Positions 34,109 through 49,418 of a stretch of DNA of 64,000 nucleotides are shown piece after piece. A model generated the notes under the pieces. It worked only from the letters and a program-made list of their open reading frames with translations. It did not search any database and was not told where the DNA came from. Origin of the DNA: Dolichospermum sp. DET69 (GTDB taxonomy: Bacteria > Cyanobacteriota > Cyanobacteriia > Cyanobacteriales > Nostocaceae); contig CP070233.1 in the NCBI GenBank assembly GCA_017355425.1, positions 4,559,501 to 4,623,500 on the forward strand, written 5' to 3'. Every line of letters begins with the position of its first letter. Positions within the stretch are counted from its first letter, which is position 1. The position numbers and the translations under genes were made by a program.

Positions 34109-35815
34109 ATGCAAATATATTGCAGTCAGCAGCACATAAATAATGGTAGTCATCGCTTTTGTACTCATTGTGGTGAAGCATTACCGTTGAATGTAGGGCA
34201 AGTTATTGATAATCGTTATGAAATTGCGCGGATCTTGGGACAGGGTGGTTTTGGACGCAGTTATTTGGCAATTGATCGGCAAAAATCTCGGAAAACCTGC
34301 GTTTTAAAGGAATTTGCCCCCAATATTGTCAAACCGCAGGATTTAGAAAAGGCTAAGGAACTGTTTGAACGAGAAGCCAGTGTGCTTAAAAAAATTCAAC
34401 ATGACCAAATTCCGCGTTTTCATGCTTCTTTTGCCGCCAAAATTGGGACTAAGGATTTTTTCTTTTTGGTGCAAGATTATATTGAAGGTGATAATTATGA
34501 TCAATTATTTACACAGCGTCAAAGTCAGGGAAAGTCTTTTAGTGAGGAAGAAATTATTAATTTATTGCATAATATTCTGCCTGTGCTGACTTATATTCAT
34601 TCTTTAGATATAGTTCACCGCGATATTTCCCCGGATAATTTGATTTTACGCGAAAGTGATAATTTGCCTGTATTGATTGATTTTGGTGGTGTCAAACAGT
34701 TACCAGCTTCTCAGGGTTTTTGGCGGACACAATTGGCTGTAAATGCAACTTTATTAGGTAAAAAGGGATACGCGCCTGAAGAACAGTTACTTCAGGGAAA
34801 AGTATATAAAAATAGTGATTTTTATTCCTTGGCGGTGACGGCTTTGGTATTAATAACAGGGAAAGAACCAAATTTACTTTATGATAGCTATAATGGCGTT
34901 TGGTTTTGGGGTAAGGAAATTAAAGTAAGTCCCAAATTAGAGGCTGTCTTCAAGAAGATGTTGGCATATAAGCCGAGCGATCGCTATCAAAAAGCCGAAC
35001 AAGTTATTAAAGATTTACCTCCACCATCTACTGTATCTACACCACAAATTATGCAAACTTCTAAGAATAATCCCCATCCTTATATTACTAAGTTAAAAAC
35101 AGAGGTGGTAGCACCGGGTATCAAACGCGCTCGGACTCTTCATGGTGGTGTCAAGAATCAGACGACATTGTTTGTCCAAAAAATACCGATGCCAATATGG
35201 TTGCGGCCTTTTACTGTCAGCTTTATCATGAGTACGGGAATATTATTAACTGGTGCGGGTTTCTTCGCTTTAGGAAATTTTGCGGTCAAGGGGATAACAT
35301 CAATTCAAGTTCCTAAAATTGAAGTTCCCAAAATCCCATCTATTCATAATTCTGGAAGTGGGAATAATGGGAAACGTAGTATTCAACAAGTTTTTAGTCG
35401 TGTCCAACAGTTAGAAATTTCTTCAGTATTTTTTACGAATACGGTTAATGAAGTTTTCTATGCCCAAAAACCAGAGTTAAACAGACGCAAGTTAACTGAG
35501 AAATCGGAAGATGCGGCTTTACGTGAACAATGGACTCAGGTTGCTGATCAGTTGTTAAATAATCTAGAAAAAGCAAATCTAAGTGAAACAGCGAAAAAGA
35601 AAATAGGTAGTTATAGTCAACAAGATTCTCACCGCTGGGATCAACTTGCTAAGGCTGGAAAATTGGGTAATTATAAATCTTTTCAGGATTTACGCGCAGA
35701 TACGTATCAGACATTTGAACCGTTGTTTCCTGGTCAAAAACGCGGGAATTTAAATCAACAAACTTTTTTGCAAATCTGGTATGCGATCGCATCTGATAAA
35801 GTAAAGAATAAGTAA
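34109..35815 (+). CDS. Zinc-ribbon Ser/Thr protein kinase with TM segment (1)
   Basis: Hanks-type kinase of 568 residues. A zinc ribbon starts the protein (YCSQQH ... CTHCGEAL, residues 3-25). The kinase domain spans about 35-300: GQGGFGRSYL loop, Lys in CVLKEFAP, IVHRDISPDNLIL, and LIDFGG in place of DFG. A transmembrane helix near 370-390 leads to an extracytoplasmic C-terminal domain (about 425-565) shared with the next gene. It probably phosphorylates cytosolic targets in response to an outside signal; neither is known. It is a paralogue of the kinase at 35924. Confidence 0.9.
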   Translation: MQIYCSQQHINNGSHRFCTHCGEALPLNVGQVIDNRYEIARILGQGGFGRSYLAIDRQKSRKTCVLKEFAPNIVKPQDLEKAKELFEREASVLKKIQHDQIPRFHASFAAKIGTKDFFFLVQDYIEGDNYDQLFTQRQSQGKSFSEEEIINLLHNILPVLTYIHSLDIVHRDISPDNLILRESDNLPVLIDFGGVKQLPASQGFWRTQLAVNATLLGKKGYAPEEQLLQGKVYKNSDFYSLAVTALVLITGKEPNLLYDSYNGVWFWGKEIKVSPKLEAVFKKMLAYKPSDRYQKAEQVIKDLPPPSTVSTPQIMQTSKNNPHPYITKLKTEVVAPGIKRARTLHGGVKNQTTLFVQKIPMPIWLRPFTVSFIMSTGILLTGAGFFALGNFAVKGITSIQVPKIEVPKIPSIHNSGSGNNGKRSIQQVFSRVQQLEISSVFFTNTVNEVFYAQKPELNRRKLTEKSEDAALREQWTQVADQLLNNLEKANLSETAKKKIGSYSQQDSHRWDQLAKAGKLGNYKSFQDLRADTYQTFEPLFPGQKRGNLNQQTFLQIWYAIASDKVKNK

Positions 35816-35923
35816 TGGGTAATTGGTAATTGGTAATTGGTAAGATGTGACAACTAACAACTAACAACTAACAACTAACAACTAACAACTGACCACTGAC
35901 AACTGACCACTGACAAATGACAA
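35816..35923 (+). repeat. Short tandem heptamer repeats between the kinases
   Basis: Four kinds of tandem unit in a row: GGTAATT, then CAACTAA about six times, then CTGACCA / CTGACAA alternating, then ATGACAA. These are the STRR heptamers known from Nostocales. They run directly into the ATG of the second kinase, leaving no purine-rich ribosome site. Confidence 0.85.
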
Positions 35924-38002
35924 ATGACTAATCTTTATTGTTCTCAAAGGCATCAAAATCCGTCTGGTAGTAGGTTTTGTCTTCAATGTGGGGAGAAAAT
36001 TGCCAATGTACCGACATCTGTAAATCAGGGTATTCAAGCGGGACAAGTTTTAGGCGATCGCTATGTTATTATCCGTCAAATTGGCCAAGGAGGATTTGGC
36101 ACGACTTATTTAGCGGAAGATATTAACCGCTTTCGAGAAAATTGTGTTTTAAAAGAATTCTCTCCCCAAGTACAAACTCCTTATGTTGTGAAAAAAGCGG
36201 AGGAACTATTTCAGCGAGAAGCAAGTGTTCTTTATAAATTGCAACATCCTCAAATTCCTCGGTTTCGGGAACTGTTACGCATCAATTTACAAGGGAAAGA
36301 AAGTCTTTTTTTAGTCCAAGATTATGTAAATGGTGAAACTTATAATTCTTTATTAAATAGTCGTAAACAACGGGGTTTAAAATTTACAGAAGCAGAAATC
36401 CGCCAATTATTACAGCAACTTTTACCAGTTTTAGAATATATTCATTCCCTTGGTGTTATTCATCGTGATATTTCTCCTGATAATTTAATGCTGCGTAATA
36501 GTGATCAATTACCTGTGTTAATTGATTTTGGGGGTGTTAAACAAGTAGCCGCAACTGTTGCTTCTCAATATTACCAAACAGGGGCAAATGCATCTCCTAC
36601 CAATGGCACTTTGTTGGGAAAAATAGGATTTGCACCCCCAGAACAAATGCAAACAGGTATGGTGTCTACCCACAGTGACTTATATGCTTTAGCTGTGACA
36701 ATGTTAGTTTTACTGACAGGTAAACAACCTCAACAATTAATTGATACTTATAATCTGACTTGGCAATGGCGGCGGGAAGTAAAACTAAGTTCCGCATTCG
36801 GACAAATAATAGATAAAATGTTATCACCAATTGCTGGCAATCGCTATCAAACAGTTCGTCAAGTTCTCCAAGCCCTTAATCCCCAACCTATTAGCTATCA
36901 GCAAACTCAACCTCCCACATCTGCAACTGTCGCTATTTCTCCCCCGAAAATTCCAGTTCCCGAACCTGTGATGATTCCCTCTCTTCCCCAACCAGGTATT
37001 TGGACAGGAAGAAATGTTTTTATCCTCGTCATTGTATTGACTATTGGGAGTTATTGTTGGTGGAAATTCAAAACCCCTCATCATAATTTACAGGGAAGTA
37101 ATGCGACAATTATATCTAGTCCCAATCCCCCGGAAGCCGCAAAACCCGAAGTTAAGTTTTCACTAGAGGAAATACAACGCAAACAAAAATTGCAAGATCG
37201 CCGTGAAGAATTGGGTATAAATTATAAATTTTATATTGCGCTGGTAAATCAAATATTTAGAGAAAAAGATCCTAGTTTAAAAGGGCGCACCCTCAGTAAT
37301 AATCCAGAAGATGAAAGTTTAAGATCAGAATGGGATAAAACCGCCGCCGAAGTCCTAGAAAAGCTGTCAAAAATCACTTCTAATTCCCGTCGTCAACTGG
37401 GGAATTATGATTCATTCATACTCGATAACTGGAAAGCCCAAATCAATAAAATTAACGTTGGGAGTCGTTCTTTATCTGATTTAGCTGATGCCGCTTTTTT
37501 TAATGAATTTCCTGAACAAAAGGATAAAAGTTTTATTAAACAACCTATTGGACAAGTTTGGTACGCATTTGTCAATGATCAACTTAACGCTATTTTTACT
37601 AAAAACGCATTTGCAAAAATTGTTTTTGCTGAAGGTGCTACAGGTAAAACAGTGAGTGGAAGTCTGCAACCAGGAAAAGGTAAAGTTTTTATTGCTGAAC
37701 TAGCCAAAGATCAGAATATGGAAGTTAAGTTAGAAGCAAATTCCCAAGTTTTATTATCAATTTATTCTCCTTCTGGGAAAATCCGATTTTTAGAAGATTC
37801 TCAAGAACGGACTATATCCAAAACATTACCAGAAAAAGGATTCTATGAATTTGTCATTGTTTCCACAGCCTCAGAACCTGTTGATTATCAACTGACTGTA
37901 ACAGCAGAAAATCCTCCAGAACCAGAACCTACAGAAACCCCCATAGAAACACCAACGCAAGAACCAACTCCAACGGAAACACCCACACCTGAGAGTAATT
38001 AA
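35924..38002 (+). CDS. Zinc-ribbon Ser/Thr protein kinase with TM segment (2)
   Basis: Kinase of 692 residues with the same plan as the previous gene: zinc ribbon (YCSQRH ... CLQCGEKI), kinase domain (about 45-320) with GQGGFGTTYL, VLKEFSP, VIHRDISPDNLML and LIDFGGVKQ, then a transmembrane helix NVFILVIVLTIGSYCWW near 368. The extracytoplasmic part has the shared domain plus a beta-rich PPC-like domain (about 565-665) and a Pro/Thr/Glu tail (TPTQEPTPTETP). The tandem paralogues suggest duplication. Its leader is entirely heptamer repeats, so translation may be leader-repeat dependent. Confidence 0.9.
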   Translation: MTNLYCSQRHQNPSGSRFCLQCGEKIANVPTSVNQGIQAGQVLGDRYVIIRQIGQGGFGTTYLAEDINRFRENCVLKEFSPQVQTPYVVKKAEELFQREASVLYKLQHPQIPRFRELLRINLQGKESLFLVQDYVNGETYNSLLNSRKQRGLKFTEAEIRQLLQQLLPVLEYIHSLGVIHRDISPDNLMLRNSDQLPVLIDFGGVKQVAATVASQYYQTGANASPTNGTLLGKIGFAPPEQMQTGMVSTHSDLYALAVTMLVLLTGKQPQQLIDTYNLTWQWRREVKLSSAFGQIIDKMLSPIAGNRYQTVRQVLQALNPQPISYQQTQPPTSATVAISPPKIPVPEPVMIPSLPQPGIWTGRNVFILVIVLTIGSYCWWKFKTPHHNLQGSNATIISSPNPPEAAKPEVKFSLEEIQRKQKLQDRREELGINYKFYIALVNQIFREKDPSLKGRTLSNNPEDESLRSEWDKTAAEVLEKLSKITSNSRRQLGNYDSFILDNWKAQINKINVGSRSLSDLADAAFFNEFPEQKDKSFIKQPIGQVWYAFVNDQLNAIFTKNAFAKIVFAEGATGKTVSGSLQPGKGKVFIAELAKDQNMEVKLEANSQVLLSIYSPSGKIRFLEDSQERTISKTLPEKGFYEFVIVSTASEPVDYQLTVTAENPPEPEPTETPIETPTQEPTPTETPTPESN

Positions 38003-38115
38003 AAAACTTTCTTCTTTCTTTTTCTTCTTTCTTTTTCTTCTTGTTGGCAACTTCTGCCTGTTCTTTTGATTTTTGGAGTTCTGTTGTCCGTTGTGCCACC
38101 TTTTCTTCTAAATTT

Positions 38116-38415
38116 TCAAAATAGCCAACTTATCTTAGCGCCACTACCGATAATGGTTGTTATACCGATTTTGCCCATTTCTAATAAAATATGATCGATA
38201 CCTAATGAATAACTTTTATAAAAACTTAGAGAGCGTGTATTTTCAAGGTTCAAGTAAGGTGCTATCATTCGTGAACCGTTTATTTTCTGGTATTCAGGTA
38301 CAAGAGTTATTTTTGGTAAAATACCTTCAATCATGGCTTTTGCCGATGGTTCTTCTAGCATAAAAACTTCTTTGAAGGCTTTGAAGTTTTTTAGACGGAT
38401 ACTTTCTATTTTCAT
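38116..38415 (-). pseudogene. Collapsed ATPase-DUF4276 locus fused to a pgk fragment
   Basis: A 99-codon frame that is a mosaic. Residues 1-15 (MKIESIRLKNFKAFK) are the start of an ABC-type ATPase. Then FMLEEPSAKAMIEGILPKI is a DUF4276 N-terminus, and GSRMIAPYLNLENTRSLSF a DUF4276 C-terminus. The tail GKIGITTIIGSG corresponds to phosphoglycerate kinase [12 protein letters not shown] in the same frame. The gene order ATPase-DUF4276 is kept, as in the intact pair directly upstream, so internal deletions of an older pair explain it. It is unlikely to be functional. Confidence 0.7.
38123..38200 (-). other. Diverged pgk fragment 1
   Basis: The stretch 38141-38200 aligns with pgk 43768-43827 at roughly 70% identity, including ACCGATAATGGT. 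It starts with AGCCAA at 38123, the same hexamer that begins the fragment at 40665. The reading frame is that of pgk. It lies within the collapsed locus. Confidence 0.55.
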
Positions 38416-38465
38416 AATTTATCATTAAACGGTTTTTCAAGGTCAATTTCTTTAATAAGATGTCA

Positions 38466-39050
38466 TTAGTTGATAATTTTTCTTAATCCATCACGAAAAA
38501 CTTGAAAACTTCTAGATTGGTTGTTTTCAACATCCATATGAGGAGATACTTTTTGAGCAAAGTTCATTTTTTGTAACCCTGTTTCATAGCCATACTTTTT
38601 GAGGATTTTATCTAATTCTTCCCACGTACCACCTTTGATCGCATCTGGATCACGAAATTTGGCTTGCTGAGGTAAAGAAGCAGGAATCTTTTCATATTCA
38701 GCCCTAATTGCTGCCACATCACCTATAAACCAAGATTCAAGTTCTTCTACAACAATTCTATGAAGAACAATATTTCCTTTTTTTTCAGTTACAACACTAC
38801 TAGCATCACAGAGTTTGTTTTTTAATTCTAAACAATTTGCTCTATCTTCGTCTACTAAAATTACAATTCGCCAATCATCAGGTATAAAATTAGCATAAGC
38901 TTTCATCCGTTCAGGTAATTTTTTTAAAAGGTTATTTTTATTGCCAAAATTGTGTATTTCAAAAGTATGAATATTACCTATAATTTTAGGAACAATAAAC
39001 TTTAAAGCAATTTCAGTGGAAGATTCTTCTACTAAAAAATGTATGTGCAT
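38466..39050 (-). CDS. DUF4276 protein, Toprim-like partner of the ATPase
   Basis: Intact DUF4276-family protein of 194 residues. Features match a Toprim-like acidic site: E in HFLVEESSTE (about 8-9), DxD in VILVDEDRAN (about 67-69), and VVEELESWFIGD near 106-117. C-terminal DVENNQSRSFQVFRDGLRKI is typical of the family. It lies 15 bp after the ATPase stop, forming a two-gene operon. By analogy with other ATPase-Toprim pairs (OLD, PARIS) it may be a nuclease effector, but this is inference. Confidence 0.75.
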   Translation of the reverse strand: MHIHFLVEESSTEIALKFIVPKIIGNIHTFEIHNFGNKNNLLKKLPERMKAYANFIPDDWRIVILVDEDRANCLELKNKLCDASSVVTEKKGNIVLHRIVVEELESWFIGDVAAIRAEYEKIPASLPQQAKFRDPDAIKGGTWEELDKILKKYGYETGLQKMNFAQKVSPHMDVENNQSRSFQVFRDGLRKIIN

Positions 39051-39065
39051 AATCAGTAATTATAA

Positions 39066-40238
39066 TTAATAGGGTAATCCTCTTAGATATCCTTCAGACC
39101 AGAGATCACCTAAACCTGCTTCGGATTCTATAAAATGTTTAGCATTAGGGATTTGGTCAGCCCTGGTAACAGTTACATAGCCATTATCATCACGTTGAAA
39201 AATCCATAGTTGTTTAGCATCTTTAATGGTATTAACAAAAAATGGTGAGTGAGTAGAAACAAATACCTGTGCGCGTTGTGCATAAGCCTGTAACTCTTCA
39301 CTTAATGAATCAAGCAGTTTGTGGTGCAGACCATTTTCTGGTTCTTCAATACAAAGTAATTGGGGAGGATTTGGATCATTTAATAATATCAAATATGCTA
39401 ATAACTTTAGTGTTCCATCTGAAGAAAATCTGGCTAAAAATGGATTATTGAAAGGTTTATCTTTAAATAAAAGAGCCAGTCTACCATCAATTGTTGGTTG
39501 AGCTTCTACTTTTTCTAATTGAGGAACACGGCTGGCTAATAACTTCAAAATACTAGATAAAGTTTCTGGATATTCATCAGCAAGGTATTGAACTACATTG
39601 GCAATATTGTCTCCTTCACGAGAGAGATGTTCCATTGCACCAGCAGTGGTTAATTGACGGGCTTGATCTGGGATAAAATAAGAGAGAAACCATCCTTCAA
39701 TAAAACGTCGTAAACTAGCAATGCGCGGGTTATCTGATAGTTGCCCAATAGTTTTAATAGCAAGAGAACTAGGATCATCCATTTGATAATGAATTTTGCT
39801 GTCATTTATTTCTGGATTCTCCCCACTAATGACTTCACCTCCACCATTCTCAAACTTCAAATAATAAAAGGGTTTGCCATGAATATCTCGCCCCAATCTC
39901 AGAGTTTCTCTTGATACTATTGGCACTCCATTTTGTAAAGCAATAGCAACTGTATAATTAATAATAGGAGATTGTTTATTTTCACGATACTTAATTACAA
40001 TTTCAATTTCTTGACTTTCACTCTCACGAGAGATAACTTCTGGAAATCTTCCTCGTTTTTCTAAGGCTTTTCTCACATTGGTAGTGATACAATCGGAAAG
40101 AAAACCTATTACATCAAAAAACGTAGTCTTGCCACTACCATTAGGTCCAAGGAAGACTGAGAAAGGTTTAATATCTTTGAGGGTAATATTTTGCAAAACC
40201 CTATAGTTTTTGACGGAAATTTCTTCAATTCTTGCCAT
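39066..40238 (-). CDS. ABC/OLD-like AAA ATPase, candidate defence sensor (1)
   Basis: SMC/OLD-type ATPase of 390 residues. Walker A FLGPNGSGKTTFFDV (about 27-41), signature-like FSSDGTLKLLAYL (about 270), Walker B LLCIEEPENGLHHKLL (about 293-308) and the switch His in VSTHSPFF. A helical insertion lies between. Such AAA_15/AAA_21 proteins dimerise on DNA or sense phage proteins and activate a partner. It begins the operon with DUF4276 at 38466. A 31-bp palindrome (40309) lies upstream. Confidence 0.85.
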   Translation of the reverse strand: MARIEEISVKNYRVLQNITLKDIKPFSVFLGPNGSGKTTFFDVIGFLSDCITTNVRKALEKRGRFPEVISRESESQEIEIVIKYRENKQSPIINYTVAIALQNGVPIVSRETLRLGRDIHGKPFYYLKFENGGGEVISGENPEINDSKIHYQMDDPSSLAIKTIGQLSDNPRIASLRRFIEGWFLSYFIPDQARQLTTAGAMEHLSREGDNIANVVQYLADEYPETLSSILKLLASRVPQLEKVEAQPTIDGRLALLFKDKPFNNPFLARFSSDGTLKLLAYLILLNDPNPPQLLCIEEPENGLHHKLLDSLSEELQAYAQRAQVFVSTHSPFFVNTIKDAKQLWIFQRDDNGYVTVTRADQIPNAKHFIESEAGLGDLWSEGYLRGLPY

Positions 40239-40308
40239 TACATCATCACTTGTATAATTCTGGTACTGCTAAAACTATCTACTATTTTAAATTATTTGTG
40301 AATATCCA

Positions 40309-40339
40309 GATCCCCGACTTCTTAAAGAAGTCGGGGATC
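40309..40339. repeat. 31-bp palindrome family, copy 4
   Basis: GATCCCCGACTTCTT / AAGAAGTCGGGGATC. It lies 71 bp upstream of the ATPase start rather than after a gene end, so it is not a terminator of a visible gene here. Confidence 0.75.
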
Positions 40340-40444
40340 TAAATACTACACTACTGAGATTGTTATTAATTATATAAGTACCGCATCCCATTAACAAGCC
40401 CTTGTAGATAAGATATAATGAAAAGGCTGTATAAAAGTAAAAGT

Positions 40445-40627
40445 ATGCAGCTAGAAGACTATTTTTAATTTTTAGACCCAGATAATATCCGTATCAAAGG
40501 GCATTGTATTAGTATTGACGATGTAATGGATTATTACCTGCAAGAATTTACACCAGAGCAAATTCTGGAGGAGTTGCGATCGCTGAATTTAGAGAAAATT
40601 CATGCTACGATTATCTCTCAGAAATAG
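40445..40627 (+). pseudogene. DUF433-type antitoxin gene with a premature TAA
   Basis: From ATG 40445: MQLEDYF, then an in-frame TAA at 40466-40468, then FLDPDNIRIKGHCISIDDVM, YYLQEFTPEQILEEL and LNLEKIHATI, to TAG at 40625. This is the DUF433 winged-HTH family, where relatives have an Asp or similar residue at the TAA. The C-terminal 20-30 residues are also missing. DUF433 antitoxins normally precede a DUF5615 toxin; none is present. Confidence 0.75.
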
Positions 40628-40664
40628 AATGGCTCATGGTTTAATTAGTAATAATTATTTTTCT

Positions 40665-40772
40665 AGCCAAACCTACCTTTTCCACAGCCGCTACAGAGTC
40701 ACCACCACCGATAATGGTAATTGCGCCGTTTTTGCTAATGTTTGCTAAAGTATGAGCGATTCCTACGGATCA
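40665..40772 (-). pseudogene. Internal pgk fragment 2
   Basis: These 108 bp are about 90% identical to pgk 43731-43838, and 50 bp (40675-40724 = 43741-43790) match perfectly. On the minus strand they encode [20 protein letters not shown] and AVEKVGLA in the pgk frame. Homology ends abruptly at both sides, neither being an end of pgk. It lies 3 kb downstream of the real gene, same orientation. Confidence 0.9.
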
Positions 40773-40785
40773 CTTCGAGATCGCA

Positions 40786-41445
40786 TCACGCCGCAGCTAC
40801 ACATTGGAAGTTTTGCAGCCGATTCAACCATTGATTCCAGTGATAAACTAACTTTGTGCGATCAAACTGAAAAACTTCTGCTTCTTGGTCAGGTAAAGCC
40901 ACAACAATTAAAGCATGATTAATTTTATCGCCAAATAGATTGGTGTAATAGTGTCTATTAATTGCGCCGCAATAAGCAGTTAGTTGTAAAGGTTTATCAT
41001 AAAGCTTTTCTAGTTTCTCCTTTGGTTCTTCGGCTGTTGTCCATTCAATGACGTGGGGAATACCTTGATAACGCGCCACAAAATCAACTTTACCAGCGTA
41101 AGTTTCCACATAATTAGGTACAACTTGCTCAACCAGTTGCACATCGCTAATATGTTTAAATAAAGGTTGAATGCTATCCCAATAAGGTTGAATAAAGTTG
41201 TTTATAGGTTGCTGTGAGTGAGTTTGGAAATGGTGCTGAATCATTTTGTGTAAAGCATTTCCCCGACTACGACTACTATTAGCAACACGATTTGCTTCTG
41301 CATCTCCAACTTTTTTCCGCCAATAGTAAAGTCCATTTCGAGACTCTTGGGTTTGTGTGGCTTTAAGAACTGTAGTGACAGCAGGAAGGAGAACGCCGTT
41401 ATTACCTCGGTAGTAGCATTGACTGTTGATGTAGGTAGATTTCAT
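40786..41445 (-). CDS. PD-(D/E)XK exonuclease (MGME1/RecB-like)
   Basis: Protein of 219 residues resembling the single-domain mitochondrial-genome-maintenance-exonuclease-type family. Motif I region SRSRGNALHKMIQHHF near 58-73, the acidic GKVDFVARYQG near 118-128, VIEWTTAEEPK near 132-142 and LQLTAYCGAI near 152-161 are arranged as in RecB-family nucleases. The usual E-x-K Lys is replaced by Thr (EWT), with Lys available in EEPK. It may process DNA ends; the role in this defence-type neighbourhood is inferred. It is divergent from the HTH-NTPase at 41605. Confidence 0.75.
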   Translation of the reverse strand: MKSTYINSQCYYRGNNGVLLPAVTTVLKATQTQESRNGLYYWRKKVGDAEANRVANSSRSRGNALHKMIQHHFQTHSQQPINNFIQPYWDSIQPLFKHISDVQLVEQVVPNYVETYAGKVDFVARYQGIPHVIEWTTAEEPKEKLEKLYDKPLQLTAYCGAINRHYYTNLFGDKINHALIVVALPDQEAEVFQFDRTKLVYHWNQWLNRLQNFQCVAAA

Positions 41446-41604
41446 AGCTTTGTGCGTATTGAGTGACTACATCAACTAGCTTCGAGGGTTGGTGTCTGAG
41501 ATAGCGTCTGAGTAAGTTGTCTAGGGTGTATGACTTTGTGTATGAGAGTGTATGACTTTTGATAATAATGCGGTTACAATAATTACAAGTTCTGTGGTTA
41601 AAAT

Positions 41605-42786
41605 ATGACTGGGCGATCGCTTACTGCATCTATAAAAGGTATAGAGAAAGCAAAAAAAGCTTTGCGAAGTAATAGCTTAAATCAAACAGCCTTAGCTAGA
41701 GATTTAGGCTTTTCTCGTTCAACTGTTACTAATTTCTTTCGTCAGATACCAATTGAACGCTTGAATTTTGAGGAAATTTGCACAAAACTAGGTTTAGACT
41801 GGCAAGATATTGTTGATGTACCAGCAAACGAAACTGAAATAGAGGAAATTGAAAATACTATATTTAAAGATCCTAATTTTTTAGGACGTGAGGAAGATAT
41901 AGCAAGTATCAACAACCTAGTTAATGAGGGTAAAAAAGTTATTCTGATTAAAGCTGAGGGTGGTATTGGTAAAACAACCTTGGCTGAAAATTGGTTTAAA
42001 ATTCAAGGTTTAGATTATTTAAAACTTAATGTAGGAACAACATCTCAAAATATCCAATCTGTAGAAGATTGGGTAAGGTTAAAGTTAAAAGATTATTTTC
42101 AAATTCCACCAGTAGAAAATTTCATGACAATGCTGGAACAATTTAAAATCAAATTACAGAATCTAAAAATAGGTATTCCACAACTTTTAAATTCTGTAAT
42201 CCAGGATATTTATCCTTTATTACCTAATTTCATAGATAAACATATATTGGATGTTTATAATAACTATCTTGAGATGCTAAGTTTTTTGAAGACAAATGTT
42301 TTGAATGATAAAATATGTAATTTGCAATTTGAAATAGTTATATCATCATTATCTTTTGAGCAAATAAACAACTTAATTGAGAATGAAGGTTTTGATGAAA
42401 TAAAATTCATCTATTTAGATATGGGTAATAGCATAATATCTAAAGTTACATTTACATTAGATGAATTTAAAGACTTAATAATTGGAGATTTAAGTCAATA
42501 TCAAGAAAATAGTAACATTTGTATTTCAGGCATTCGTAGTCACAAATCAGAAGTCAAATCTTCAAAATTAAGTGAGAGCTTGATTTTTTATGAAAATCGC
42601 AATTTACAAGAAGAATGGAAATTAACGTATAAAGATATTAATATGCTCAGAGATTACTATGATGCTAATTTATTAATTACATATTCCTTATATCTTACTT
42701 CCCCAGAAGTTCGCTCTTATATCGAAGAAACCCTACTCCTACCCATCGAAGAAATAGAAAAACACCCATTCAAATATCAAGAATAA
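41605..42786 (+). CDS. HTH-P-loop NTPase (NB-ARC-like N-terminus) with unknown C-terminus
   Basis: Protein of 393 residues. Residues 1-75 form the HTH domain that heads many cyanobacterial STAND proteins (LNQTALARDLGFSRSTVTNFF, then FEEICTKLGLDWQDIVD). FLGREEDIASIN and the P-loop IKAEGGIGKTTLAENW (about 113-128) are NB-ARC-like. No Walker B, winged helix or repeat sensor follows. Instead residues about 190-393 are an unrelated Asn/Ile-rich region. Full STAND proteins are usually over 600 residues, so this looks like a shortened or chimeric member. It lies in the island between pgk fragment 2 and pgk. Confidence 0.7.
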   Translation: MTGRSLTASIKGIEKAKKALRSNSLNQTALARDLGFSRSTVTNFFRQIPIERLNFEEICTKLGLDWQDIVDVPANETEIEEIENTIFKDPNFLGREEDIASINNLVNEGKKVILIKAEGGIGKTTLAENWFKIQGLDYLKLNVGTTSQNIQSVEDWVRLKLKDYFQIPPVENFMTMLEQFKIKLQNLKIGIPQLLNSVIQDIYPLLPNFIDKHILDVYNNYLEMLSFLKTNVLNDKICNLQFEIVISSLSFEQINNLIENEGFDEIKFIYLDMGNSIISKVTFTLDEFKDLIIGDLSQYQENSNICISGIRSHKSEVKSSKLSESLIFYENRNLQEEWKLTYKDINMLRDYYDANLLITYSLYLTSPEVRSYIEETLLLPIEEIEKHPFKYQE

Positions 42787-42925
42787 AATGTTTCATTTCT
42801 GCCAAGTTATCATCTTAGTAAAGATGTATGCTATAATAAAGCTCAGTTGAGTGAGTAAACTATTGATATAGTATATAAATTGTAGTTAAGAAAACCCTTG
42901 TATTACCACTGGAGGTTGATCAAAA

Positions 42926-43147
42926 ATGCTAAACCAATCTATTACCGAAATGACTTTACAGGATTTAGAATCCTTAATTAATAGACTTGTTGATGAAAAA
43001 ATTAATCAAATCAATCTTCCTAAACATCACAAAATAGAAAAGTCTGAACTTGTTAAAAAAATACATATCTTGCAAGAAAACTTAAAGCAAAAATATGGAG
43101 AATTTTCTGATTTAACAGAATTATTGCGAGAAGATAGAGACAGATGA
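42926..43147 (+). CDS. Antitoxin of a VapBC-type pair (1)
   Basis: A 73-residue charged, helical protein (ITEMTLQDLESLINRLVDEK, then HKIEKSELVKKI). It has no typed DNA-binding domain that I can name. Its last codon overlaps the PIN gene by 4 bp (ATGA), the standard antitoxin-toxin coupling. A GGAGG ribosome site lies at 42911. The antitoxin assignment rests on this position and size. Confidence 0.75.
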   Translation: MLNQSITEMTLQDLESLINRLVDEKINQINLPKHHKIEKSELVKKIHILQENLKQKYGEFSDLTELLREDRDR

Positions 43148-43578
43148 TCACAGATAAAATCGTCATTGATAGTAGTGTAGTCATTAAATGGTTTATTGCT
43201 CAAGATTATTCATTAGAAGCAAATAAAATCCTTGATGCTTATCAATCACAACAAATTACCTTGATTGCACCAGACTTGATTTATGCAGAAATTGGTAATA
43301 TTGTTTGGAAAATACAGCGATTTCAAGGTTTAACAAATCAGGAAGCTGAAATGATACTTGATTTATTTCAGCAAATACAATTAAAAATATTTCCTGCTGA
43401 TGAATTATTAAAAGATGCCTATCAGTTTGCAGTCAATTATCAAAGAACCGTCTATGATAGCCTTTACGTAGTTTTAAGTATCAGAGAGAACTGTAAATTT
43501 ATTACTGCTGATGCAAAGTTGTACAATGCTATTTATCGGCATATTCCAAATATTCAACTTATTAAAGATTGGATTTAA
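43144..43578 (+). CDS. vapC: PIN-domain VapC-type toxin (1)
   Basis: PIN ribonuclease of 144 residues. Acidic residues sit at the expected places: D in IVIDSSVVIKWF (about 8), E in PDLIYAEIGNIVW (about 48), D in RTVYDSLYVVLS (about 103) and D in FITADAKLYN (about 122). VapC toxins cleave tRNA or rRNA and are held by the VapB antitoxin. It is the last gene of the island before pgk, which is convergent. Confidence 0.88.
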   Translation: MITDKIVIDSSVVIKWFIAQDYSLEANKILDAYQSQQITLIAPDLIYAEIGNIVWKIQRFQGLTNQEAEMILDLFQQIQLKIFPADELLKDAYQFAVNYQRTVYDSLYVVLSIRENCKFITADAKLYNAIYRHIPNIQLIKDWI

Positions 43579-43634
43579 GTTAATTCTTGAAAATGAAGGA
43601 CAAAGCCCAAAAGCCTCATCCTTCATCCTATTAA

Positions 43635-44837
43635 TTATGCTTCATCCAAAGCTGCAATACCAGGTAAAATCTTACCTTCCAACAACTCCAAACTAGCACC
43701 ACCACCAGTAGAAATATGGCTCATTTGATCAGCCAAACCAACCTTTTCCACAGCCGCTACAGAGTCACCACCACCGATAATGGTAATTGCACCAGTTTTG
43801 CTGATATCTGCTAGAGTATGTGCGATCGCTTCTGTACCTGCCGCAAACTTATCAAACTCAAACACACCCATAGGCCCATTCCAAATCACAGTTTTACAAT
43901 CAGCCAAAGCAGCTTGGAAAACTTTAATAGAATCAGGTCCAATATCTAAACCCATCCCATCGGCAGGGATATTTTCAATGCTGACAGTAGTAGCATTAGC
44001 ATCAGGAGAAAACTTATCAGCAGAAACAATATCTGTAGGTAACAATAAAGCTACACCGCGTTCTTTAGCCTTAGCTTCTAACGCCTTCGCTAATTCCAGC
44101 TTATCTTCTTCTACCAAAGACTTACCAACACTCAAACCACGGGCTTTATAGAAGGTGAAAATCATCCCCCCACCAATGATCAACTTATCGCACTTTTCCA
44201 ACAGAGTTTCAATAACTCCAATTTTGCTAGAAACCTTAGAACCGCCGATAATAGCCACCAAAGGACGTTGGGGACTTTCAATTGCACTTTGTAAGTATTG
44301 CAATTCCTTTTCCACCAAATAACCAGCTACAGAAGGACTTAAGAACTTAGTTACACCCTCAGTTGAAGCGTGGGCGCGGTGAGCAGTGCCAAAAGCATCA
44401 TTTACATAAAAATCAGCATTTGCAGCTAATTTCTTGGCAAATTCAGGCTCGTTTTTTTCTTCTTCTGGGTAGAAGCGGACATTTTCCAACAACAGCACTT
44501 GACCATTTTGTAAAGCCGCAACCTTAGCAGCTACATCATCACCAATACAGTCATCAGTTTTGACAACTTCTTGTTTCAACAATTCAGAAAGGCGTTTAGC
44601 AACAGGTGTTAGACGTAATTTTTCATCTACACCCTTGGGACGGCCGAAATGACTTGCTAAAATGACCTTAGCGCCCTTTTGAGTCAAATCCTGGATAGTT
44701 GGCAGCGCAGCCCGAATCCGGGTATCATCAGTAATGTTGCCTTGATCATCCACAGGGACGTTAAAATCAACCCGCACTAAAGCGCGTTTTCCAGATATCT
44801 CAGCCGCAGATAAACTTGCTAAACTTTTTTTAGACAC
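43635..44837 (-). CDS. pgk: Phosphoglycerate kinase
   Basis: Cytosolic kinase of 400 residues for glycolysis and the Calvin cycle. [61 protein letters not shown] and the nucleotide loop [14 protein letters not shown] are all intact. I chose the GTG at 44837: it is 7 bases after a GGAGAG ribosome site and gives [13 protein letters not shown], as in relatives. The open frame has a TTG two codons earlier. Fragments of residues about 333-370 are duplicated at 40665 and 38123. Confidence 0.97.
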
Positions 44838-44925
44838 AGCCAAACTCTCCTGATTACTTTTTTGTTATTGTTTTCAAAATATGACTATCAAGATTTTACT
44901 GGAGTGAGGCGTGCAGAGGTGAAAT

Positions 44926-45333
44926 ATGTTTAAAACAGTTCTATTTCCCATTGATCAAAGTCGAGAAGCCAGAGAGGCCGCTGATATAGTTGCCAATATT
45001 GTGCAAACCTATGGCAGTCGCTTAATTCTGCTTTCGGTTGTTGAAGAGCCAGACTTAGAAGCACCTGCTACCAGTCCTATGGTGTCTCCAGAAGCAGTTG
45101 CCAAACTTTTAGAAAATGCCCAGGCTTTATTTTCTGGACAAGGAATCATCGCGGAATTACTAGAAAGACAAGGTAAACCAGCCTTTACTATCTGTGATGT
45201 GGCTGATGAAGTTGGGGCTGATTTAATTATTATGGGCTGTCGGGGACTAGGCTTAACTGACGAAGGTTCAACGGATAGCGTGACTACACGGGTGATTAAC
45301 CTTTCCCCTTGTCCTGTTTTGGTTGTTCCTTAA
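44926..45333 (+). CDS. Universal stress protein family
   Basis: UspA-like protein of 135 residues with the Rossmann-like fold start FKTVLFPIDQSREAREAA, the DLIIMGCRGLG segment near 103-113, and the C-terminal PCPVLVVP. The ATP-binding GxxG(9x)G(S/T) motif is altered (GCRGLGLTDEGSTDS), so nucleotide binding may be lost. The function is generally tolerance of stress. It is divergent from pgk, with both starts within 90 bp. Confidence 0.88.
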   Translation: MFKTVLFPIDQSREAREAADIVANIVQTYGSRLILLSVVEEPDLEAPATSPMVSPEAVAKLLENAQALFSGQGIIAELLERQGKPAFTICDVADEVGADLIIMGCRGLGLTDEGSTDSVTTRVINLSPCPVLVVP

Positions 45334-46586: not shown

Positions 46587-49418
46587 TTACAAAAATCTTT
46601 TTTTCAAAGCTAATGGCAGATTTTTCGCCATTTCTAAACCTTCCACATTTTGCCAATTAGTTTTTTCATCCCAGCGGATATCACCAAAGGTATGATCACT
46701 AAAGATAGCACCCATAAAGTTCGCACCATCAAAGTTTGCACCGCGCAAATCCGCACCGCACAGATTAGCGCGACTCAAATCTACATCTTTGAGGTTTGCA
46801 CCAGATAGGTTAGCACGGCTAAGATTTGCACCACTCAGGTAAGTTTCTCCTAAATTCGCGGAGGTAAAATCTGCATTTCTCAAATCTGCACCAATAAAAT
46901 AGGCGCGGTTCAGGTTAGCATAGCTGAAATTTGCCCCACAAAGACTAGCACGGCTGAGGTCTGCTTCTGTTAAATCTGCGTAGCTTAAATTTATTTGTAA
47001 CAGACTTGCCCCCCGAAGATGAGCGCCACTGAGAAATTGACCAACTAAATTGCGGAAATTTTCACCCTGTAAACAATTACTGTAATGAATAATATTGTTT
47101 AATTGGTAGGTAAAATTGTTCGCTTCCGGTTGACCAGAGGGATAAAAAATTATATGCTCTTTGAGTACCTCATCTTCTTGGGCATAACGCTGGATAGCTA
47201 AAAGTAAAATCATCACATTTAACCCAGCATAAATATCTACTTGACGCTGACCTAATTGGTGAATACCAATATTTTGTAATTCTCGTAGCTTGGTTTGGGG
47301 TAAGGTTTCTTCAGCGGTATCAATAAATTTACCTTGACACCAACTGACATAAAAATCATTTAACCGTTTATATAGTTGTACCCAACGGAAATTGGGAACA
47401 GCAATCATCAAACCCATTAAATATTCAACTATTTCTTTGGTAAGAATCCCAAAACCTAGCAAATCATAAATTTGCCAATTCATTTCGGATTCATTGGTAA
47501 TTAATTCTTTACCAGATTCTGTATTACAATACTGTGTCCAGGCAGTGAGACTTAATTTCAAACTGTCAGCAAAGAGAAATTCACTAAAGCTTTGATGGCT
47601 AAATTTTACCCGATTATCTGACTCATGATCAGGATAAATATAAAAATCTGCTAAAGGTGTTTTGAAAATTTCATCCTTTATTAATTTTGCATCATCTTCA
47701 AGCTGAGATTTTAGCATTGATATTGCCGCAAATTCTCCACCTGACTGAGTTACAGCAACAGCAGCTTCTGTGAGAATATCTTTTAAATTTGGTAATTGAT
47801 CATGGAAATTAGGTGATGATTTGGAAATTAACCAATTTATTGCTTCTTGATAAATTAAAGCTGTAGCAGTTTTAGAATTATCCGTTAATAAATTATCAAT
47901 TACCAGTTGATCATCTCGATACATTCCCGCTAAAAAGTAAAGTAATAAAGGTTCACTGATTAATTCTTGAATAATTGCCGGACATTTTTGATTAACTAGA
48001 AACTCCTGTAAATCTGTATTTTTTCCGTAATTAGCTGGTAAAGATTGCCATCTTTCTAGCCATTTTTCCTGTTGCTGTTGATCTAAAGGCAGAATTTCTA
48101 CTCTTTCTAAATTTGTGGGTAAATTAGAGATAATTGATAAAGGGATAATATCACTGGTAATTAATACTCTATGTCCCATTCTTTCGTCATTTTTACATTG
48201 TTGCTGAAATTCAGCAACTTGTTGGATAAACTTCTCTAAATTCTCACTATTTCTAGACACAATTGATAATTCATCCCAACCATCAAAGATAAAAATAAAG
48301 CGATTATTTTTATTTCTTAACCAGTTATGATCACCGCGAGTAAAGCTAATATCTAAATTTGCAGTTAATGTTTCTGATAGCTGAGATGATAAAGTTTTAA
48401 TATCTTTAACATTAATTAAAATTGGTGTCCAGAAAGGATGTAAATGTTGTCTAATCCAATCTGCGAATATTTTGCAAAAAACACTTTTACCTCTGCCTAT
48501 TTTTCCTTGGATAAATATAACTTTCTCCAAGTTATTTTCAGCGAGGATATTTTTCTTAACCCATGCTTCTAAATCACAAGATTCAGCATTAATATTTATT
48601 TGCCCATATTTATTGACAGGTTTAGCTTTGAGGGGAATATAAATATCTTTAAATGAGCAAGTTTGATCAAAAACCGGATCTAATGCTTGAGTAGCAATGT
48701 GATTTGTGAGATATTCCTGAATATTTTGAATGTTCTGTTGTTCTGTTTCCCATTTATCTCGACAATTTTCCATCACTGTTTGGATATCATCACCTAAATC
48801 CATCAAAGCTTTAATAATATATATATTAGTATTTCCTGCAATTCTTTTTGCTAAAAGTCTGGCTGGATATTTGCTAAGATAGGGGGATGTTAATCTTGTG
48901 GATAATAGGTTATTAAATGCGCCTGCTAATTCAGATTTCTGAAAACATTCAATTGTCTGCATAGCAGTTTGTTCATCTAATTCAATATTATTGATGGTTT
49001 CTAATATGGTTACTAATTCTGCATTTCCATCGAAATTATCATAATTTAAGGAAGGATATAAAGATAAAATATCACGGATACTTTCTAAGTAAGCCGCTTG
49101 ACTAATAATAGATATATAGTCTTCTAAAGTAGGAGCTTGTTGAGAAATATCACGATAAGATTTCAGGAAAGCTATTCCCAGAGATAAAAATGATAATTCT
49201 CCATTTATTACCTGGGTTAAGGGTGAACATAACACATCTAATAAAGAAGATGAATTTTGCAGTAACAGTTGTAAAACTTCTAAATTAGCACCTTGTTCTT
49301 TAATGCTTGTTGCTGCTTCTAAAACTGCTTTACCAGTTTCCTGGGTTGTATTTATACTTTCTTCTACTGAGAAAGATTGACGAAACTGATACCAAATATT
49401 TGATAGGGATTTTTTCAT
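46587..49418 (-). CDS. NACHT NTPase with pentapeptide repeats
   Basis: Large protein of 943 residues. A helical N-terminus (about 1-260) is followed by a NACHT ATPase with Walker A IQGKIGRGKSVF (about 302-313) and Walker B FIFIFDGWDEL (about 375). Helical repeats lead to a run of pentapeptide repeats at about 795-905 (ADLTEADLSRASLCGANFSY and more), then a short tail with FGDIRWDEKTNW. NACHT proteins are STAND-type signal switches, and cyanobacterial and bacterial versions can act in phage defence; its trigger is unknown. It is a stand-alone gene of normal length. Confidence 0.88.
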   Translation of the reverse strand: MKKSLSNIWYQFRQSFSVEESINTTQETGKAVLEAATSIKEQGANLEVLQLLLQNSSSLLDVLCSPLTQVINGELSFLSLGIAFLKSYRDISQQAPTLEDYISIISQAAYLESIRDILSLYPSLNYDNFDGNAELVTILETINNIELDEQTAMQTIECFQKSELAGAFNNLLSTRLTSPYLSKYPARLLAKRIAGNTNIYIIKALMDLGDDIQTVMENCRDKWETEQQNIQNIQEYLTNHIATQALDPVFDQTCSFKDIYIPLKAKPVNKYGQININAESCDLEAWVKKNILAENNLEKVIFIQGKIGRGKSVFCKIFADWIRQHLHPFWTPILINVKDIKTLSSQLSETLTANLDISFTRGDHNWLRNKNNRFIFIFDGWDELSIVSRNSENLEKFIQQVAEFQQQCKNDERMGHRVLITSDIIPLSIISNLPTNLERVEILPLDQQQQEKWLERWQSLPANYGKNTDLQEFLVNQKCPAIIQELISEPLLLYFLAGMYRDDQLVIDNLLTDNSKTATALIYQEAINWLISKSSPNFHDQLPNLKDILTEAAVAVTQSGGEFAAISMLKSQLEDDAKLIKDEIFKTPLADFYIYPDHESDNRVKFSHQSFSEFLFADSLKLSLTAWTQYCNTESGKELITNESEMNWQIYDLLGFGILTKEIVEYLMGLMIAVPNFRWVQLYKRLNDFYVSWCQGKFIDTAEETLPQTKLRELQNIGIHQLGQRQVDIYAGLNVMILLLAIQRYAQEDEVLKEHIIFYPSGQPEANNFTYQLNNIIHYSNCLQGENFRNLVGQFLSGAHLRGASLLQINLSYADLTEADLSRASLCGANFSYANLNRAYFIGADLRNADFTSANLGETYLSGANLSRANLSGANLKDVDLSRANLCGADLRGANFDGANFMGAIFSDHTFGDIRWDEKTNWQNVEGLEMAKNLPLALKKRFL

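Follow-up and report, generated by a model that had tools for sequence, protein, structure and literature searches.

How pieces of an intact core gene come to be embedded among the toxin-antitoxin and candidate defence genes beside it is the question raised by the pgk locus of the cyanobacterium Dolichospermum sp. DET69. The window analysed here, a stretch of 64,000 nucleotides (nt) of this genome (contig CP070233.1, positions 4,559,501 to 4,623,500), contains an intact pgk, which is essential in sugar metabolism, and, in the island downstream of it, two partial copies of the gene's 3' end; a reading of the sequence alone had attributed these to repeated events at one point in pgk. Between pgk and a Ser/Thr kinase gene lies an insertion hotspot, whose contents are probably best explained by serial, homology-anchored insertion of a pgk tail together with its flank and cargo, followed by recombination between tails. 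Throughout, G and L numbers label genomes and loci, respectively, and negative numbers give nt from the pgk stop codon.

Two displaced pieces of pgk

The inner piece, at 40665-40760, aligns without gaps to pgk 43731-43826 with 91% identity over 96 bp (E value 1.5e-31 genome-wide). The sequence-only reading had extended this match, at about 90% identity, to 40772/43838; it holds as far as 40760/43826, where the likeness ends at GCGAT. The outer piece, proposed at 38141-38200 as a more diverged copy of the same region, was confirmed as such, if weakly: it spans 38141-38199 or 38204 with 70-75% identity to pgk (73% over 59 bp at 38141-38199), has E values of 3.7e-4 in a 15.5-kb stretch and 0.03 genome-wide, and forms the end of a 99-amino acid (aa) pseudo-open reading frame (ORF) at 38116-38415. 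Both pieces share the orientation of pgk, and a third extra copy is not evident in the 6.0-Mb genome, where the next match is 21 bp long (E 0.06). The -97 end of the inner piece looks like a deletion joint, because the 47-bp fragment that abuts it recurs within the stretch of the DUF7380 gene in L039, L057 and L060.

Between the inner piece and its own pgk there are seven synonymous and two nonsynonymous differences (P 0.002), and a synonymous excess at P<0.05 was found in 10 of 24 piece blocks, which are not independent of one another. When the pgk tails of different genomes are compared, 19% of differences are nonsynonymous, so that they are mostly synonymous as in young pieces; old pieces are near the neutral ratio, with 12 of 16 differences nonsynonymous in the window's outer piece and 14 of 19 in L044. 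Since young-piece differences are mostly synonymous, exchange between strains is favoured over a decayed local copy, and the pattern fits differences that arose when each tail was still functioning in a strain of its own.

Recurrence in relatives

To assess recurrence, 120 relatives were searched at the DNA level and 217 genomes of the family at the protein level, and 41 loci were aligned locally. The fetched loci cover mainly the downstream side of pgk, and some were chosen for having pieces, such that the set is enriched for them. Among the matches listed, 10 of the 16 genomes in the genus have pgk-tail pieces (G000, G001, G004 and G006-G012), as do at least seven further genomes of the family (G042, G044, G045, G048, G145, G172 and G213); weak extra matches were counted for G003, G014 and G015 beyond those listed. 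All 23 pieces that have pgk on the same locus lie on its strand. G000, G008 and G010 are complete genomes, and the extra matches listed for them are likewise downstream of pgk, at no more than 13 kb; the pieces of G004, G012 and G001 are on contigs that do not carry pgk. The gene itself is intact in 42 of 45 loci, the remaining three being contigs without it, and across 12 genomes the distance between pgk and the kinase gene ranges between 0.6 and 9.7 kb, the cargo enclosed by these two conserved genes being variable. An apparent fusion of pgk to other sequence in G120 was rejected, the break being an assembly gap of N.

Across the 45 loci, which are biased toward those bearing pieces, 14 of 42 pgk ORFs have tail pieces on the same contig, compared with 10 of 309 other ORFs of at least 250 aa, only three of which have pieces of at least 60 bp. 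For a neighbouring nitrilase-like gene, used as a control, the tail gave two extra matches only, of 24 and 32 bp, in the 16 genomes of the genus. This difference, together with the recurrence of pieces in the genus, makes chance similarity or a dispersed repeat scarcely credible as their source, and the E value of the inner copy already refutes it for that copy; such an origin could draw on the weak genome-wide match of the outer copy taken alone and on the density of HIP1-type repeats. The HIP1 octamer GCGATCGC occurs at 43822-43829, within pgk, and at 25 other places in the window, making 26 in 64 kb against 0.17 expected.

Pieces as probable former 3' ends

All displaced pieces fall within the last 222 nt of pgk, and ten of them, which end at or nearly at the stop codon, were used for a test of their flanks. 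In the genus, all five stop-reaching pieces run on into a pgk 3' flank that belongs to a different genome: L049 into that of L040 (94/97 nt), the first piece of L038 into that of L040 (83/97), the second into that of L060 (85/97), L042 into that of L040 (83/100) and L046 into that of L043 (90/99), with shuffled controls far below. The pgk flank of the same genome is unrelated for three of these five (L049, the first piece of L038 and L046). Similarly, where pieces lead into a DUF29 gene, at seven loci, 51 of the 54 nt upstream of DUF29 match G067, in which DUF29 directly follows pgk. The pieces in the genus are thus very probably displaced pgk 3' ends.

It is quite unlikely that the pieces were instead generated by local tandem duplication of the end of pgk and its neighbours in one lineage, followed by decay, with no foreign DNA involved. 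This would account for G044 (L075 2284-2442), where, unlike in the genus pieces, the last 72 nt of pgk and its 3' flank form an exact tandem repeat, and for G172 (L088 6111-6213) and G213 (L089 4014-4114), in which repeated RTX-repeat genes downstream of pgk surround pgk tails whose flanks are not of the pgk type. By contrast, the genus pieces bear the flank of another genome rather than their own, the cargo differs between the two sides of a piece, and the young pieces differ from pgk mostly at synonymous sites.

Exchange of flanks and cargo

Three types of pgk 3' flank, here named T1, T2 and T3, are found in 14, 6 and 5 of 25 genomes, respectively. Placed on a tree of the pgk body, they require 10 changes, compared with a mean of 9.98 when shuffled; flank type thus appears unrelated to this tree, a soft result as 5 of its 22 branches are starred. 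Flanks and cargo have been exchanged at the end of pgk: the swapping of cargo there, predicted for relatives by the sequence-only reading, is plain in the comparisons of loci. The window has the order pgk-T1-vapBC-NTPase-PDDEXK, then a piece, then DUF433 pseudogene-T2-AAA-DUF4276, and G011 has pgk-T2-AAA-DUF4276-Uma2, then a piece beginning at -57, then T1-PIN, so that the stacking order of the T1 and AAA-DUF4276 units is reversed between the two. T2 in the window is weak evidence by itself because this hairpin is also a dispersed repeat; the argument is carried by the position of AAA-DUF4276 next to pgk in G011 and G048.

Genomes resembling both parties were found for three such events. For the window, G014 is donor-like, having the PDDEXK segment at 97% identity with no piece behind it, and G048 is recipient-like, with T2-AAA-DUF4276 directly behind pgk. 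For G011, the donor-like genome is G048 (pgk-T2-AAA-DUF4276-Uma2, 94.7% identity over 2445 bp) and the recipient-like one G003 (pgk-T1-PIN, flank 94/97). In G008 and G009, a unit like that of the donor-like G015 (97.8% over 3753 bp) stands in front of piece-T1-Uma2, for which G005 and G039 are recipient-like. The gene pgk, the one core gene examined in this respect, is itself a mosaic whose nearest neighbours change along its length, which blurs a comparison of tail and body identity as a test of tail transfer; the out-of-register rows of L053 were left out of that comparison.

Joints between pgk and cargo

Joints were grouped, in a classification of our own, by the sequence upstream of each piece. 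About 12 were found, at -57, -67, -95, -103, -108, about -190 to -200 (four), -219 and -222 (two), and the 3' ends of pieces in relatives lie at -87, -97, about -121 to -125, -132/-133, -145 or the stop codon. A single breakpoint at AGCCAA, proposed as the common start of both window pieces, was therefore rejected: the junctions between cargo and pgk spread from -57 to -222, and the coincidence fails for the outer copy, its alignment setting 38123 opposite pgk 43750 and not 43731. Of the proposal that repeated events had occurred at one point in pgk and left older and younger borders, the repeated events and the layers of different age stand and the shared point falls. In L045, L054 and L040, the cargo sequence runs on past the position of the G011 joint into another small gene; the two sides of that joint have TTG in common.

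In G004 (L042 2464-3193), a DUF29 gene separates two parts of pgk, -196..-87 and -95..-1. These have 9 nt in common, as after a target duplication or two stacked events. At L046 11517, L054 9197 and L047 10080, a 14-15 nt vestige of pgk, CGATCGCTCATACT, separates the kinase unit from the VapC end, where L049, L045 and L059 retain 42-46 nt.

Recombinases and nucleases

Integrative elements that insert at the 3' ends of tRNA or protein genes restore the end of the gene and displace the old one. A site-specific integrase of a mobile element acting at the 3' end of pgk, the old end representing attR and the integrase genes having since been lost, would likewise explain the constant gene, side and orientation, as well as the restored and displaced ends. 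A recombinase-based origin is retained as an alternative mainly because joints cluster at -195 and -220. Four of them are at HIP1 or close to it (-192 to -200), and the best point for a site-specific reading is the three joints at -219/-222, whose upstream flanks differ (L038, L044/L048 and L046). Such an origin is nevertheless unlikely, as the 5' ends of the pieces span -57 to -222 with no constant crossover core, such variable joints being one difference from the elements described above and the lack of an integrase found near pgk another.

A tyrosine recombinase beside pgk, for which the sequence-only reading had recommended a search, was not found: in the ten piece-bearing genomes of the genus, neither tyrosine (PF00589) nor serine (PF00239) recombinases gave a match near pgk, the nearest match in G000 being about 77 kb away, and in the draft genomes there was none on the contigs carrying pgk or pieces. 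Representatives of ORF clusters (at least 90 aa) from the stretch that separates pgk from the outermost pieces matched kinases, AAA_21, DUF4276-type, Uma2, PIN, PemK, DUF29, DUF433, XisH, XisI, PDDEXK, DnaJ-pentapeptide, VWA, DUF7380, RTX repeats and, marginally in one case, ResIII, or nothing, and no recombinase family in Pfam was matched among them. XisH and XisI take their name from an excision-control locus and are not recombinases. Nor was any phage or plasmid record found with a nostocalean pgk tail. An attachment site of a phage or plasmid was accordingly rejected, since protein searches with the tail had the pgk of other bacteria as best hits and viral contigs gave eight relatives, in both cases at no more than 68% identity.

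The cargo might alternatively drive its own spread through homing, with Uma2 or PD-(D/E)XK nucleases cutting the pgk tails of strains that lack the unit and repair copying in unit, tail and flank. This is very improbable; if true, the defence-type cassettes would be selfish elements entering the end of an essential gene without interrupting pgk.

A model of serial insertion

According to the serial insertion model, incoming DNA from related strains would start inside pgk and carry the rest of the gene, its 3' flank and downstream cargo of toxin-antitoxin or candidate defence genes. One end would enter by homologous recombination within pgk, and the other would be joined to the recipient with little or no homology, sometimes inside the recipient's own pgk tail. 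As the newcomer supplies a tail, pgk would stay whole, and the recipient's old tail, flank and cargo would be pushed outward and then decay. Two copies of the pgk tail flanking cargo could later recombine, inserting, deleting or re-ordering units, and joints beyond pgk would leave no piece, such that visible events would be a subset. We infer the homologous anchoring, the route of uptake and the dependence on RecA.

Several observations weigh against this model. Outside the genus, no pgk-like flank accompanies the pieces at or near the stop codon in L058, L090, L088 and L089, and at L075 the genome's own flank is repeated locally in tandem; the model may not apply to G042, G145, G172 and G213, in which the flank test failed. 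In G001, unrelated genes spanning about 7 kb (diaminopimelate epimerase-like and photolyase-like, by eye) precede a two-piece island on contig C257 (L038), which may represent either an island apart from pgk or a rearranged assembly; fragments at places unrelated to pgk, named by the sequence-only reading as contrary evidence, were seen in this one instance. Microhomology was read at a single joint, as the 3 nt TTG at G011, and 4 of the approximately 12 joints are at or within 5 nt of the single HIP1 octamer of pgk (-195), a clustering noticed afterwards that random joining does not predict. The last 100 nt of pgk in L049 are nearest to T1 genomes, tail origin therefore not tracking flank type, which, with the shift of nearest neighbours along pgk, makes the incoming tail untraceable. 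Lastly, the ComEC and DprA families are present in all five genomes tested, but also in controls such as E. coli, and hence are no proof of competence.

Relation to known systems

Hotspots that lack mobile elements and change by recombination at flanking core genes have already been described (2017, PMC5635113). As outlined there, these resemble the pgk island in that two conserved genes enclose variable cargo, with no integrase nearby and a recombining core gene at the border; whereas that model involves a double exchange in both flanking core genes, in the pgk island one flank, pgk, leaves displaced 3' ends from which the succession of events can be read. Insertion with long target duplication (Nobusato et al. 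2000, as cited in PMC1643837 and PMC3154945) is similar to the pgk units in that long direct repeats of the target flank a unit with restriction- or toxin-type cargo and no transposase. It differs, on the description in those citing papers, in that the pgk events recur at one gene in many species, with a repeat consisting of gene end and terminator flank that is replaced each time. The mostly synonymous differences of the pieces suggest alleles of different strains, which bears on whether the copies started identical. Homology-facilitated illegitimate recombination, known from transformation experiments with joints of 3-10 bp (PMC3240628), shares with the process proposed for pgk one homologous end and another joined through short or no homology; the pgk case, by comparison, is read from genome layouts and has one clear joint, of 3 nt. 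A literature search, outside which subscription papers mostly fell, found no account of pgk as an insertion site of this kind.

Variable regions of defence genes often lack an integrase, and their growth is as a rule deduced from statistics. At pgk, single insertions, their order and their partners are recorded in the displaced ends of a core gene, making the process readable and testable step by step. If this is true, 3' fragments of a neighbouring core gene could serve as a marker for such hotspots elsewhere.

Features of the island

The gene content given for the island by the sequence-only reading was borne out by Pfam matches to PGK, AAA_21, DUF4276, PDDEXK_1, NCH2 and PIN and by the in-frame TAA of the DUF433 pseudogene (Table 1). 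The adjacent AAA_21 and DUF4276 genes match the PADLOC models HEC-01A and HEC-01B, and by these model matches form a candidate HEC-01 defence pair; PADLOC also labels Uma2 as PDC-S03 and the DUF7380 protein as PDC-S39.

Table 1. Annotated features between the Ser/Thr kinase gene and pgk in the window
Feature	Position	Strand	Basis or remark
pgk, intact	43635..44843	-	Pfam PGK 4e-168; last ~222 nt (43635-43856) is the part found displaced
pgk 3' flank type T1, hairpin-like repeat after stop	43592..43627	-	Common to pgk 3' flanks elsewhere
VapC-like PIN protein, first gene of inner unit	43144..43578	+	Pfam PIN
Small ORF ahead of PIN gene, presumed antitoxin	42926..43147	+	Position; without Pfam match
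Helix-turn-helix (HTH)-NTPase-like protein with NACHT C-terminal helical domain 2	41605..42786	+	Pfam NCH2; HTH by eye
PD-(D/E)XK nuclease, last gene of inner unit	40786..41445	-	Pfam PDDEXK_1; 97% identical to G014 segment without remnant behind
Short HIP1-like repeat at cargo/pgk junction	40761..40785	.	G004 has a different repeat at that place
Inner displaced pgk piece, -192..-97	40665..40760	-	91% over 96 bp
Fragment also inside DUF7380 gene stretch of relatives	40620..40664	.	Matches in L039, L057, L060
DUF433 pseudogene	40446..40616	+	In-frame TAA by eye; matches DUF433 genes of relatives
Hairpin type T2	40300..40340	.	pgk 3' flank in G008, G009, G048; also dispersed repeat
AAA_21 ATPase, HEC-01A-like candidate defence protein	39066..40238	-	Pfam; PADLOC HEC-01A 8e-151
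DUF4276 protein, HEC-01B-like	38466..39050	-	Pfam; PADLOC HEC-01B 2e-82
Fused pseudo-ORF, from ends of second ATPase/DUF4276 pair into outer pgk piece	38116..38415	-	Matches in L045, L046, L049, L060
Outer displaced pgk piece, -192..-134, old, weak	38141..38199	-	73% over 59 bp; 12/16 differences nonsynonymous
Ser/Thr kinase gene, far-side border of island in at least 12 genomes	35924..38002	+	Orthologue positions; kinase domain from cluster representative

An Rfam search of 37900-45000 gave no match. Beyond the island, 14-nt tandem repeats at 35809-35910 separate two kinase genes, and a 943-aa ORF at 46587-49418 has, by eye, the appearance of a NACHT-type NTPase with pentapeptide repeats.

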